Source: Candidatus Saccharibacteria bacterium CG_4_10_14_0_2_um_filter_52_9 (GTDB lineage Bacteria > Actinomycetota > Acidimicrobiia > Acidimicrobiales > RAAP-2). Taken from it: a DNA stretch of 53,711 nt. A program made the position numbers and the translations under genes. The notes under the pieces were generated by a model that worked only from the letters and a program-made list of their open reading frames with translations, did no database searches and was not told the DNA's origin. Below are positions 10,550 through 16,279 of the stretch, piece after piece. The stretch covers positions 1 to 53,711 of the forward strand of contig CAJCJA010000026.1 in assembly GCA_903970515.1 (NCBI GenBank). The letters are read 5' to 3'. How positions within the stretch are numbered: position 1 is the stretch's first letter; the number at the start of each line of letters is the position of its first letter.

Positions 10550-10633
10550 GCCCGGATGGCGGAATCGGCAGACGCGGAGGCCTCAAAAGCCTTTACTCGA
10601 AAGGGTGTGTGGGTTCAAGTCCCACTCCGGGCA
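10550..10633 (+). tRNA. tRNA-Leu (anticodon CAA)
   Basis: A class II tRNA of 84 bases. Acceptor stem GCCCGGA pairs with TCCGGGC (10626-10632), followed by discriminator A. The anticodon stem GAGGC/GCCTT encloses the loop CTCAAAA, giving anticodon CAA, which reads UUG. The long variable arm (ACTC/GGGT) and the T arm GTGGG-TTCAAGT-CCCAC are typical of leucine tRNA. The CCA end is not encoded. Confidence 0.96.
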
Positions 10634-10636
10634 CGA

Positions 10637-12293: not shown

Positions 12294-12354
12294 GTGACTA
12301 GAGTTTCAGAATTCCTTGAGTACCATTGAGCGACACAAAATAAGGGGCTTGAAC

Positions 12355-12591
12355 ATGGACCGAAACGAAGCACTCACGAAATTCACCGACAACGCCGTCG
12401 AGGTACTCGCGGTGGACCCTGCCCAGGTGACGCTCACGACCTCGTTCGAGGACCTAGGCGCGGACAGTCTGGATCTCGTCGAACTCGTGATGGCGCTCGA
12501 AGAGACCTTCGACATCGAAGTCGCCGAGGATGAACTCAAGGAAATCCGCACCGTGGGCGAAGCCTTCGAGCTGGTCTACGCCAAGCTGTAG
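12355..12591 (+). CDS. acpP: Acyl carrier protein
   Basis: 78 residues, acidic, all-helical. The phosphopantetheine attachment site is Ser-38 in GADSLDLVEL. The ATG at 12355 was chosen because AAGGGG lies seven bases upstream; an earlier in-frame ATG at 12316 would add a 13-residue basic tail unlike ACPs. The TAG stop shares its G with the GTG of fabF, so the carrier and the condensing enzyme are tightly coupled. There are 61 bases between fabG and this start. Confidence 0.96.
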   Translation: MDRNEALTKFTDNAVEVLAVDPAQVTLTTSFEDLGADSLDLVELVMALEETFDIEVAEDELKEIRTVGEAFELVYAKL

Positions 12592-13790
12592 TGCGCGTCG
12601 CCACCACCCCGTCGGGGCCGGTGTCGGGGCGCCGCGTTGCCGTTACGGGGCTCGGCGCACTGACGTGTGCGGGCATTGGCGTCGATGCGCTCTGGGCAGC
12701 GTTGATCAAGGACACCGCACCAGCGTCGAAACGAATTGCGCCCTTTGACGCAACCCACATAGGAGGTCCCAAGGAGCTTCGCCGTCTCGACCCCTTCACG
12801 CTCTACGCGCTCATGGCGGCCGACGAGGCGTGGCGACAGAGCGGTCTGAGCAGTCCCATTGTTGAAGGCGGCAGTCTCGTGACGACCGGCATTGGTGGAC
12901 TTCAGACGGTACTCGAACAGGTGCGCGTGCTCAATGAGAAGGGTCCCGACCGCGTCTCACCCTTCATGGTGCCGATGATGATGCCCAATGCGGCGACCGC
13001 GGCGGTCTCGATGCGTTTTGGTCTCGGTGGTCCCTGCGAGACGGTCACGACGGCGTGTGCCGCGGGCACCCACGCCATTGGTAATGCGGCGCGCTTGGTC
13101 GCGAGCGGGCGTTGTCCCGTCGTCGTGGCGGGCGGGGCCGAAGCGGTCATCGTCGAGATCGCCGAGGCTGGATTTCGCAACATGACCGCGTTGTCGAATG
13201 AGGAGTTCTCACGACCTTTTGACGCGCAGCGTAACGGCTTCGTCATGGGCGAAGGCGCGGGCATCTTAATTCTTGAGGAATGGGACCACGCCCACGAACG
13301 GGGTGCGACGATCTTCGGCGAAGTCATCGGTGCCGCGTCCACCGCTGACGCGCACCACATCACCGCACCCGACCCGGCGGGCAATGGCGCGGTGCGTTGC
13401 ATGGAACTCGCCCTCGCCGACGCCGGTGTTGCACCCAGTGAGGTCTCGCACATCAACGCGCACGGCACCTCGACCCCGTTGAACGACCTCGCCGAAGCCG
13501 TCGCGGTACGCCGGGTCTTCGGTGAGCACTCGCCCCCCGTCACGTCGATCAAGGGACACCTCGGTCACAGCCTCGCCGCCGCGGGTGCGCTCGAGGGCGT
13601 CGCGTCAATCATGACGTTGATGAACCAACTCATGCCGCCCACCGCCGGCACCAAGGAAATCGACCCTGACGTCGGACTCGACGTCGTCGTGGGCGCACCG
13701 CGTGCGGGCGACCTCGAAGTCATATTGTCCAACTCCTTCGGGTTCGGTGGCCACAACGGGAGCGTCGTGTTTCGCCGCTACCGGGCCTAA
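12591..13790 (+). CDS. fabF: 3-Oxoacyl-ACP synthase II
   Basis: Elongating condensing enzyme of type II fatty acid synthesis, 399 residues. Catalytic Cys-156 (TVTTACAAGTHAIG), His-291 (NAHGTSTPLND), Lys-321 and His-326 (IKGHLGHS) match the Cys-His-Lys-His set of the KAS I/II family. The GTG start shares a base with the acpP stop. At the 3' end its stop overlaps the stop of the opposite-strand TrpF-like gene by 4 bases. No fabH or acetyl-CoA carboxylase gene lies nearby. Confidence 0.95.
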   Translation: MRVATTPSGPVSGRRVAVTGLGALTCAGIGVDALWAALIKDTAPASKRIAPFDATHIGGPKELRRLDPFTLYALMAADEAWRQSGLSSPIVEGGSLVTTGIGGLQTVLEQVRVLNEKGPDRVSPFMVPMMMPNAATAAVSMRFGLGGPCETVTTACAAGTHAIGNAARLVASGRCPVVVAGGAEAVIVEIAEAGFRNMTALSNEEFSRPFDAQRNGFVMGEGAGILILEEWDHAHERGATIFGEVIGAASTADAHHITAPDPAGNGAVRCMELALADAGVAPSEVSHINAHGTSTPLNDLAEAVAVRRVFGEHSPPVTSIKGHLGHSLAAAGALEGVASIMTLMNQLMPPTAGTKEIDPDVGLDVVVGAPRAGDLEVILSNSFGFGGHNGSVVFRRYRA

Positions 13791-14455
13791 AAGTTTCGCC
13801 ACTCCTCGCGCTGTCGCGATACGTAGGCGTTGGCGTTCGCCCAACGCGCGTTGTCGATGAACTCACCCAGCAGCGCGGGATCCTTCACGCCCGGTTCGAT
13901 CTCAACCCCGGAACGCACGTCGACACCCCACACGGGATAGTTCTGAACGACGTTGACGACGTTGGACGAGTTGAGTCCGCCCGAGGCGATCAATGGGGTC
14001 GGGATGCTCAAATCGGCGAAGATCTCGAGCGTGTCGATCAGCACATCGATGTCGTCGTCCTCGGGCACGAGGAAGTAGTCGACGCCATCGACCGCTCGCA
14101 GTTCACGCACCGCTTCGGCCGACGAAAGACCTCGTATCACCGTGTTAACCCGTTCGCTCACCCACTTGAGGGACGCCGCAGAGATTGGCCCATCGATCTG
14201 TGCCGCCGACAGGCCCAGAGTGTTCGTCACTTCGACGATTTTCTGGGGCAGGTCGTTCACGAAGACGCCCACGCTCAGGGCACCCTGCGGTAAACGCCGG
14301 ATGATGTCGTCCGCGGCACTTGGGCTAATCCGTCGGGGCGTCGGGCCGAATTCAAACCCAATGGCACTCGCCCCGAGTCCAATCGAGAACAAGGCGTCTT
14401 CTTCCGTGGTCACGCCCGACACCTTGATGAACAGTCCCTCAGTGTTAAACCGCAC
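13787..14455 (-). CDS. TrpF-like (phosphoribosylanthranilate isomerase family) protein with altered active site
   Basis: 222 residues with the TrpF (beta/alpha)8 layout: FIKVSGVTTEEDALF, FGPTPRRISPSAADDII, VGVFVN, the phosphate site IASGGLNSSN and GVDVRSGVE..PGVKD. The catalytic positions are changed. The general-base Cys of KICG is Ser-13 (KVSG), QLHG reads QIDG (86-89), and the segment that usually carries the catalytic Asp (VDA...GGTG) reads VPEDDDID. The anion-binding frame is kept, so it may bind a phosphorylated ligand but probably does not catalyse the TrpF reaction normally. No other trp genes are near. GTG 14455 has TGAGGAGG six bases upstream. Calling it plain TrpF would be the default but is doubtful. 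Confidence 0.75.
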   Translation of the reverse strand: MRFNTEGLFIKVSGVTTEEDALFSIGLGASAIGFEFGPTPRRISPSAADDIIRRLPQGALSVGVFVNDLPQKIVEVTNTLGLSAAQIDGPISAASLKWVSERVNTVIRGLSSAEAVRELRAVDGVDYFLVPEDDDIDVLIDTLEIFADLSIPTPLIASGGLNSSNVVNVVQNYPVWGVDVRSGVEIEPGVKDPALLGEFIDNARWANANAYVSRQREEWRNF

Positions 14456-14498: not shown

Positions 14499-15185
14499 CT
14501 AGGGAATGACCTCGACGCTGAGCGAGGCGTCATCGATGGCGTCAATCGCACTTCGATGGATGAACCCGAGCACGTGGATCCCACCGTCGTAGTGCACCGC
14601 GGTACTGACGCCCTTGGGACCCTCAGGGCCTTTCGCCACGAGTGCGGCTTCGATGACGTCAAGGGAAGGGCCGCTTGCTCGCACGTAACGCCACGGCACG
14701 CTCGAACCACGCGCGTCAAGTCGACCCACGAGTTCTTGACCGGTGAAGCAACCCTTGGTGAACGACACGGTGCGTTCCACGAACGACCTACCGTACACCT
14801 GGGGCACGAGTCCGAGGAACTCGTGGGGTCCCGGTTCGCCGCGTCGTACCTGTTCAGCGACGCTGTCGAACGGACCGCTCGCGACTTCTTCCACTGACAA
14901 GGTGCAATCGACGCGAAGGTGGAATCGCTTGAGACGCGTCAGCGCGACGTCGGCGACTTCGCGCGCGACGAGCAGCTCGAAACCGTGGTCGAGTGCACCG
15001 ATCCAGCACGTGCTCAACACGTCACTCGTGGGACTCAGCAGCAAGGAGGGTACGTACGCGCCCTGCACGTGCGCGACGTCCTGGCTGAGTTGACCTTGGA
15101 GGAACGTTTCACTCTGGGGCCCGCGTACGAGGATTCGCGACCAGGTAAAGGGATCGTCCTCGTGATGCACGTGTGTGGGAATCAT
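14499..15185 (-). CDS. ygfZ: YgfZ/GcvT-like folate-binding protein
   Basis: 228 residues, a compact member of the YgfZ family, whose proteins bind folate and help assemble or repair iron-sulfur enzymes. The diagnostic KGCFTGQE motif (144-151, with Cys-146) is present, after the family's LQGQLSQDV and before GRLDARG. It is related to the T-protein of glycine cleavage but lacks that enzyme's full length. The ATG at 15185 has no Shine-Dalgarno and lies eight bases after TACTGT, so it is likely leaderless. It is transcribed away from the 62-residue gene from the same short intergenic region. Confidence 0.88.
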   Translation of the reverse strand: MIPTHVHHEDDPFTWSRILVRGPQSETFLQGQLSQDVAHVQGAYVPSLLLSPTSDVLSTCWIGALDHGFELLVAREVADVALTRLKRFHLRVDCTLSVEEVASGPFDSVAEQVRRGEPGPHEFLGLVPQVYGRSFVERTVSFTKGCFTGQELVGRLDARGSSVPWRYVRASGPSLDVIEAALVAKGPEGPKGVSTAVHYDGGIHVLGFIHRSAIDAIDDASLSVEVIP

Positions 15186-15442: not shown

Positions 15443-16279
15443 ATGATCGGCGCGTGGCAAAGTAGTACCAAACTCACGAGCGAACAGCGGCTCGAAGTTC
15501 TGAATCTGCTCAACCGCACCGAAGCCGAACTCGGGCGCGAAGCCATCGACGAAGGACGTCGTCGTATCGTCGTGCACGGTTGGCCCGCGCAGCACTGGCT
15601 GCATTACCACGACACGGGACTCGCCGAGTACGCCATCGCGAACGGCATCAAGCGCACCACCATCGAGATGTGCGGTGGAGGTATTGACGAAGGCCTCTTG
15701 GACCACGTCCTCAAGGAGCACGAATCGGTCGACTGGTGGACCAGGGGTCCCATGGACGTCGCGGGCGCTGAGGTCGTGCGGACGTTGCAATTACTTCGTG
15801 TCATGTTGCCCGTGCCCGTCGTCGAGGTGCCCGCCGGTGCCGTGCTTCGTAATTTCGAACCCGGTCGCGACGAGGACGCCTGGATCGCGCAGAACAACGC
15901 CGCCTTCATGCATCATCCCGAACAGGGCGCCTGGTTGCGCGTTGACCTTGATGAACGCACCAACGAACCATGGTTCGACCCTTCAGGATTTCTCTTGCTC
16001 GAGATCGAAGGCAAACTCGCGGCGTCGTGCTGGACGAAGGTCCACGAACTGCACCCCGATCGATTCGGCGAGATCTACGTGATCTCGGTTGATCCCGCGT
16101 TCCAAGGTCAGGGTCTCGGTCGCGCCATGGTTACCCAAGGGCTTGCGTCGTTGCGAAAGAAGGGCGTCGGTGACGCAGTGTTGTTCGTGGACGAATCCAA
16201 TACGGGAGCTCGAATGCTCTACGAATCGTTGGGTTTTCATCTCGAGCGCGAAGACCGACTGCTGCGTTTCGCGCGTTAA
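15443..16279 (+). CDS. mshD: Mycothiol synthase (acetyl-CoA:Cys-GlcN-Ins acetyltransferase)
   Basis: 278 residues with two GNAT domains, the architecture of MshD, which performs the last step of mycothiol synthesis. The active C-terminal domain has the acetyl-CoA loop QGQGLGRA (221-228) within GEIYVISVDPAFQGQGLG, plus WTKVHELHPD and VDESNTGARMLYESLGF. The N-terminal domain carries WLHYHDTGLAEYAIANG. Mycothiol is restricted to actinobacteria, and mshC is also present in this window. The gene ends by sharing four bases with the opposite-strand VIT1-type gene. Confidence 0.92.
   Translation: MIGAWQSSTKLTSEQRLEVLNLLNRTEAELGREAIDEGRRRIVVHGWPAQHWLHYHDTGLAEYAIANGIKRTTIEMCGGGIDEGLLDHVLKEHESVDWWTRGPMDVAGAEVVRTLQLLRVMLPVPVVEVPAGAVLRNFEPGRDEDAWIAQNNAAFMHHPEQGAWLRVDLDERTNEPWFDPSGFLLLEIEGKLAASCWTKVHELHPDRFGEIYVISVDPAFQGQGLGRAMVTQGLASLRKKGVGDAVLFVDESNTGARMLYESLGFHLEREDRLLRFAR

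Follow-up and report, generated by a model that had tools for sequence, protein, structure and literature searches.

Two residues, Cys7 and Asp126, are described as the catalytic pair of the phosphoribosylanthranilate (PRA) isomerase TrpF (PMC2667513). Pseudoenzymes derived from tryptophan enzymes are already known, and two of them come close to the protein described here. In the plastid TrpF-TrpC pseudoenzyme of Leucomyxa plasmidifera the essential Cys has become Ser, the same change as in our protein, and no function is assigned to it (PMC11528492). That case concerns one alga and a fusion to TrpC, whose catalytic Lys is also lost, and the conclusion there was that the host is auxotrophic for tryptophan; our protein, in contrast, stands alone, is spread across a bacterial genus and is accompanied by a second, canonical TrpF. 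The plant TSB-like protein is a dead tryptophan-enzyme paralogue kept beside an active one and activates TSA (PMC12727527). Our protein resembles it as an apparently dead paralogue beside an active one, although only TSB-like has a named partner.

Two further systems are related in fold or in history. In HisF-HisH the N-terminal face of a (βα)8 barrel is reported as the docking site of the partner (PMC9032424), HisF being an active enzyme with a known partner, unlike the predicted dead barrel considered here. SubTrpF2/AdeK and other PriA-derived proteins are presented as phosphoribosyl isomerases of actinobacteria whose function shifts when homologues are present beside them (PMC13055916); according to the same text they belong to the PriA family, have been tested and are still active, whereas our protein derives from TrpF. 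Among the matches listed in a search of PMC titles and the starts of abstracts, a scope that leaves most subscription papers outside, there was no bacterial TrpF pseudoenzyme or family of them.

The TrpF-like gene and its replaced residues

The window, by which we mean the whole 53,711-nt stretch of contig CAJCJA010000026.1 that was analysed, contains an isolated TrpF-like gene, hereafter the orphan. It encodes 222 amino acids from a GTG start at 14455 to a stop at 13787-13789, with the sequence GAGGAGG lying 6 nt 5' of the GTG. The orphan and fabF converge and their stops overlap by 4 nt. A tRNA-Leu (caa) lies at 10550-10634, just upstream of the fab cluster. The surrounding genes are:

12316..12591, plus strand, acyl carrier protein gene of the fab cluster
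12591..13790, plus strand, fabF, convergent with the orphan
13787..14455, minus strand, orphan TrpF-like gene, formerly a phosphoribosylanthranilate isomerase gene
14499..15185, minus strand, YgfZ-like gene, upstream of the orphan on the same strand
15443..16279, plus strand, mshD (mycothiol synthase), outer marker of the locus

The YgfZ-like gene (ygfZ below) has weak NCBIfam YgfZ matches, below the cut-off, and no Pfam match; mshD is assigned by TIGR03448 (172.6 bits, above the 163.1 cut-off). The orphan is homologous to TrpF, scoring 72.8 bits against the Pfam PRAI model (PF00697, cut-off 22.7). Its AlphaFold2 model is a (βα)8 barrel (pLDDT 94.1, pTM 0.92), for which Foldseek gives the T. 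maritima TrpF structures 1NSJ and 1LBM as top matches (E 3e-16, TM 0.75/0.81). Against the NCBIfam TrpF equivalog it reaches 100.6 bits, short of the cut-off of 215, and two canonical TrpFs also fall short (132 for the copy in the same genome, 165 for that of genome G063). No HisA model was among its profile-search matches, and an hhalign comparison with the genome's own HisA returned a probability of 0.2 on a scale of 100; no similarity to HisA or PriA was recognisable.

The segments of the orphan that bear on its function are:

14414..14425, minus strand, KVSG (residues 11-14), with Ser13 aligned to the Cys7 site of T. maritima TrpF
14351..14353, minus strand, Glu35 at the end of strand 2, acidic in 79/79 orphans and Ile, Val, Asn or Leu in 64 canonical TrpFs
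14279..14302, minus strand, IRRLPQGA (residues 52-59), helix 2-strand 3 loop on the N-terminal face, newly conserved
14189..14200, minus strand, QIDG (residues 86-89), with Asp88 at the His83 site
14051..14068, minus strand, VPEDDD (residues 130-135), with Pro131 at the catalytic Asp126 site and new acidic residues Glu132 and Asp134
13973..13990, minus strand, IASGGL (residues 156-161), phosphate-binding loop, retained
13928..13945, minus strand, QNYPVW (residues 171-176), helix 7-strand 8 loop on the N-terminal face, newly conserved
13901..13921, minus strand, DVRSGVE (residues 179-185), second segment of the phosphate site, with a new Arg181

All the motifs named in the original prediction (KVSG with Ser13, QIDG, VPEDDD, IASGGLNSSN and GVDVRSGVE..GVKD) are found in the minus-strand frame. 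The orphan has the fold, length and phosphate loops of T. maritima TrpF and retains Gln86, Arg41 and Asp179. It differs in that Cys7, Asp126, His83 and the PGSG loop are replaced, and in that residues of the N-terminal face and of the C-terminus are newly conserved.

Both catalytic sites are also replaced in nearly all orthologues of the genus. At the Cys7 site none of the 78 readable sequences has Cys (71 Ser, 6 Ala, 1 Gly), and the Asp126 site is Pro in 75/79 and Asp in 4/79. The 64 canonical TrpFs aligned beside them (11 from the old site described below, 32 from the second operon and 21 from other genera) have Cys in 63 cases, with one Asp, and Asp126 in all 64. Because the loss recurs among the 79 orthologues from the genus, it is not a matter of chance or of a sequencing slip, and the prediction of a TrpF relative without catalytic residues and with a changed role stood. 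The accompanying claim, that the phosphate site was kept, is true of the window protein and does not extend to its orthologues: all four scored phosphate-site residues are retained in 56/79 and at least one is changed in the other 23, so an intact site is not a feature common to orphans. Position 159, within IASGGL, is a gap in 9/79.

Other positions of the pocket are also constrained. R108 is present in 75/79 orphans, an acid at 134 in 77/79 and Arg181 in 64. The four carboxylates at 35, 88, 132 and 134 occur together in 54/79; at least three are present in 71/79 and two only in 8. One divergent sublineage (loci L012, L128, L129 and L130 of genomes G067, G353, G341 and G336) has Ala at the Cys7 site and an Asp aligned with Asp126. 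It has lost most of the conserved C-terminal residues and is still strongly constrained (dN 0.011, dS 0.27 between G067 and G341).

Locus history across the genus

We searched 99 genomes of the same genus and read their loci. In 11 of them trp genes occupy what we call the old site, with trpF beside ygfZ; 85 carry the orphan type and in 3 neither was found. In the old-site genomes ygfZ is followed by trpC-trpF-trpB (11/11), with trpA in 10 and fabF beyond in 9, the others running into a contig end. The same complete order is found in G229, from another genus of the family, which suggests that it probably predates the genus. Each old-site genome has one TrpF (a second in 0/11), canonical except in G363. 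In that genome (97% complete) the sole TrpF found (locus L036, match 1501-2079) has KIDG, with Asp for the catalytic Cys, within an otherwise normal trp operon; the Asp recalls the catalytic aspartates of HisA and PriA.

The 85 orphans comprise 79 that are full or nearly so and six pieces, five of them at contig ends and one, in G309, in two frames. The pieces have orphan residues where readable, except for a Leu at 131 at one contig end. The G309 gene (L253, 5028-5640) may be a pseudogene, or else its assembly, which is 70% complete, contains a frameshift error. At the 79 loci, which are without trpC, trpB and trpA, ygfZ directly precedes the orphan in 75 and fabF lies within 2 kb in 73. The two genes are on the same strand in 75/75 loci, with 11-49 nt between the ygfZ stop and the first aligned orphan residue, which indicates that they are probably co-transcribed. 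In four genomes, frames of 631-724 aa suggested fusions of the orphan with ygfZ; these were rejected, since loci L113-L116 have separate frames. In G380 (L104) and G318 (L110) the orphan and ygfZ are present and fabF is not in the downstream stretch fetched, so the neighbourhood is rearranged or there is an insertion between them. The orphan is cleanly absent from G122 (L266) and G372 (L264), where ygfZ stands directly against fabF; it is therefore dispensable in some lineages. In the TrpC tree G122 and G372 fall together. In G337 no orphan was found, and neither was fabF itself.

The original prediction called for a check for a second trpF, and there is one. When the window's genome (96% complete) was searched with PRAI, a single additional copy came up, on contig C55 (115 bits), which lies within trpC-trpF-trpB-trpA and has the canonical motifs KICG, QIHG and LIDG. 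Another TrpF is seen in 83/85 orphan genomes, the exceptions being G320 and G373 (86% and 70% complete), and every orphan genome at least 90% complete has a further PRAI match. The second-operon copies have Cys and Asp in 72/72 loaded, seven of which share a frame with trpC. These copies (L003:7856-8599 and relatives) evolve fast (median dN/dS 0.25), and the Gly of QLHG is often Asp or Glu. In the second operon of seven genomes (L280, L282, L284, L287, L289, L300 and L301) TrpC and TrpF are apparently fused in one frame of 652-752 codons.

The suggestion that PriA had freed the TrpF copy finds no support in the same genome. Its HisA scores 164 bits against the HisA model and 98 against the bifunctional HisA/TrpF model (both below the cut-offs, over a matched stretch of 215 aa), and this preference, together with the canonical trpF, means that PriA does not explain the change in the orphan. 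The freeing event was likely the second trp operon.

In a TrpF tree of 81 proteins (quick search with SH-aLRT, without bootstrap, midpoint root) the orphans, represented by 21 diverse sequences, fall in a single clade (SH-aLRT 99) whose nearest neighbours are five old-site canonical copies (84 for the joint group). The 28 second-operon copies form a separate group (88), and the old-site TrpFs are split, four standing apart and those of G055 and G379 falling with the second-operon copies (97). The TrpB tree places the copies of the genus from the second operon and from the old site in one group (98); TrpC gives no resolved tree. On the TrpB grouping, the second operon is likelier to have arisen by duplication within the lineage than by distant transfer. 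We say only likelier because the TrpC tree does not resolve and the TrpF tree splits the old-site copies.

Among 296 genomes sampled across the class, the highest-scoring match from beyond the genus is a canonical copy (151 bits). A scan of 84,980 species gave 491 matches; 77 of the best 80 were aligned, 65 of orphan type and 12 of canonical type, counted regardless of genus. By title 79 of these best 80 come from metagenome-assembled genomes, many from bog, palsa or fen.

Selection and the position of constraint

Substitution rates were compared between genomes in 24 disjoint pairs, picked solely by their fabF distance; for mshD and ygfZ there were 22 pairs. The median dN/dS of the orphan is 0.107. 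Of the other genes, trpB has 0.077, fabF 0.106, mshD 0.18, trpC 0.198, ygfZ 0.228 and the working TrpF of the second operon 0.25. The orphan has a lower dN than the working TrpF in 22/24 pairs (Wilcoxon p 1.2e-6), than ygfZ in 22/22 and than fabF in 5/24. Since synonymous change in the orphan is on the scale of that in fabF, the constraint acts on the orphan protein. Its mean pairwise identity is 0.58, with 79 open frames. A set of dN/dS values from pairs picked by orphan identity is biased low and is not the basis of this claim. Of the 28 listed pairs of canonical TrpFs from the old site, the 7 with finite dS have dN/dS values of 0.085-0.171. Taken over all pairs, dN relative to fabF is 1.64 for these copies, 2.34 for the orphan and 3.66 for the working TrpF. 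The old-site copies were thus already constrained, and strong constraint did not begin only after the loss of catalysis.

The faces of the barrel were assigned from the secondary structure of the AlphaFold2 model, and positional entropy was compared in 60 genomes for which both the orphan and the working TrpF were loaded. The catalytic-face loops are equally variable in the two proteins (1.21 bits in the orphan vs 1.23). The helix-to-strand loops, which lie on the opposite, N-terminal face, fall from 2.14 bits in the working TrpF to 1.25 in the orphan. Helices (2.08 vs 1.42) and strands (1.05 vs 0.79) are also less variable in the orphan; measured against the working TrpF, the gain of the orphan is therefore not confined to the N-terminal face. 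Five of the seven helix-to-strand loops gain (α1β2, α2β3, α3β4, α4β5 and α7β8), as do both termini, and α5β6 and α6β7 do not. For an N-terminal 'arc' defined after the data had been seen, and leaving out α5β6 and α6β7, the contrast with the catalytic face has p 5e-8.

The contrast holds in sets of similar overall identity. The arc identity is 0.70 in the 21 orphans, 0.41 in the 11 old-site copies and 0.54 in 21 canonical copies from other genera, whereas the catalytic face of the same sets gives 0.51, 0.68 and 0.66; helix identity (0.49, 0.47 and 0.54) shows no gain in the orphans. In the working TrpF the arc is among the most variable parts (identity 0.31). Where the phosphate site is changed (23 orphans), the arc still matches the orphan consensus at 0.75 and the catalytic face at 0.55, both below the 0.85 and 0.72 of the 56 with an intact site. 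By the secondary structure of the model, the constraint on the barrel has moved away from the catalytic side and onto the N-terminal face opposite.

A proposed docking barrel and its alternatives

Derived from an enzyme, stripped of its catalytic residues and kept by selection, the orphan is by its sequence a predicted pseudoenzyme. Because those residues are lost and yet conservation is tighter than in the working copy, it is probably now a non-enzyme with a new binding role. On balance we favour reading it as the leftover trpF of an operon that moved, now a catalytically dead barrel that docks through its N-terminal face. An ancestral trpC-trpF-trpB-trpA operon would have stood between ygfZ and fabF; a second trpCFBA operon would have arisen elsewhere in the genome, after which trpC, trpB and trpA would have disappeared from the old site and the remaining trpF would have lost both catalytic residues and taken a new job. 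The stable dead barrel would dock via its N-terminal (strand-entry) face, either to itself as a homodimer or to a conserved partner. A ligand that modulates this docking may, in the majority of members, still be bound by the former phosphate cradle with its added acids and arginines. T. maritima TrpF dimerises through its N-terminal faces. Dedicated PMC searches for TrpF dimer faces and catalytic residues returned nothing direct. We are more tentative in proposing that the N-terminal face is the new working surface of a genus-wide docking protein, likely co-transcribed with ygfZ and constrained about as strongly as a core fatty-acid enzyme.

Conservation on the catalytic face (the acid at 35, R108, P131 and the acid at 134) goes beyond what pure docking needs and counts against it. 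It might be due to a ligand, to a metal or to a network of internal salt bridges, and these points keep alive the idea of a redirected enzyme, in which the pocket was rebuilt with the carboxylates at 35, 88, 132 and 134 and the arginines at 108 and 181, perhaps metal-dependent and acting on another sugar phosphate. The conservation of those four pocket positions, the frequent co-occurrence of the carboxylates and the phosphate residues kept in most orphans speak for such an enzyme. On average, though, the catalytic-face loops are no more conserved than those of the working TrpF, their identity falls below that of the identity-matched canonical sets, and constraint persists where a phosphate-site residue is changed or only two carboxylates remain, as between G067 and G341. 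We consider a redirected enzyme unlikely, if the most serious competitor. The suggestion in the original prediction of a ligand-binding or redirected enzyme accordingly survives as a possibility, while the gain in selection, greatest on the face opposite the active site, and the changed phosphate sites are fitted better by docking than by a ligand-only or enzymatic role. An allosteric partner of the working TrpF or of another trp enzyme, in the manner of PDX1.2 or the plant TSB-like protein, has precedent in dead paralogues that activate a pathway enzyme (PMC12727527), and nearly all orphan genomes show another TrpF. The variable N-terminal face of the working TrpF is unlikely to offer a conserved matching surface, which makes that protein a poor candidate partner and led us to reject a conserved heteromer with it; TrpB and others are still available, and we regard the allosteric reading as improbable.

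Lower still we place a weak or back-up PRA isomerase that uses Ser13 or another base. The window protein retains the fold, Gln86, Arg41, Asp179 and the phosphate loops, and the Asp at the Cys7 site in the sole TrpF found in G363 indicates that the position tolerates change. Against this, the protein has neither of the catalytic residues, nor His83, nor the PGSG loop; a further TrpF, canonical in all those loaded, occurs in every orphan genome that is at least 90% complete; and another Cys-to-Ser TrpF was judged probably inactive by its authors (PMC11528492). Least credible is a relic in decay, retained solely because it sits between ygfZ and fabF: the orphan does occupy the old operon site of its relatives, is cleanly absent from two genomes and stands in two frames in G309, but its dN/dS is near that of fabF at comparable synonymous change and its 79 open frames share a mean pairwise identity of 0.58.

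For 85 of the 99 searched genomes of the genus, the name PRA isomerase, taken from a Pfam match, would probably mislead. With a canonical same-site copy in relatives and a canonical second copy in the same genomes, the orphan offers a natural experiment in the passage from enzyme to non-enzyme, and a concrete target for a new function in an uncultured group of actinobacteria, many of them from bogs.
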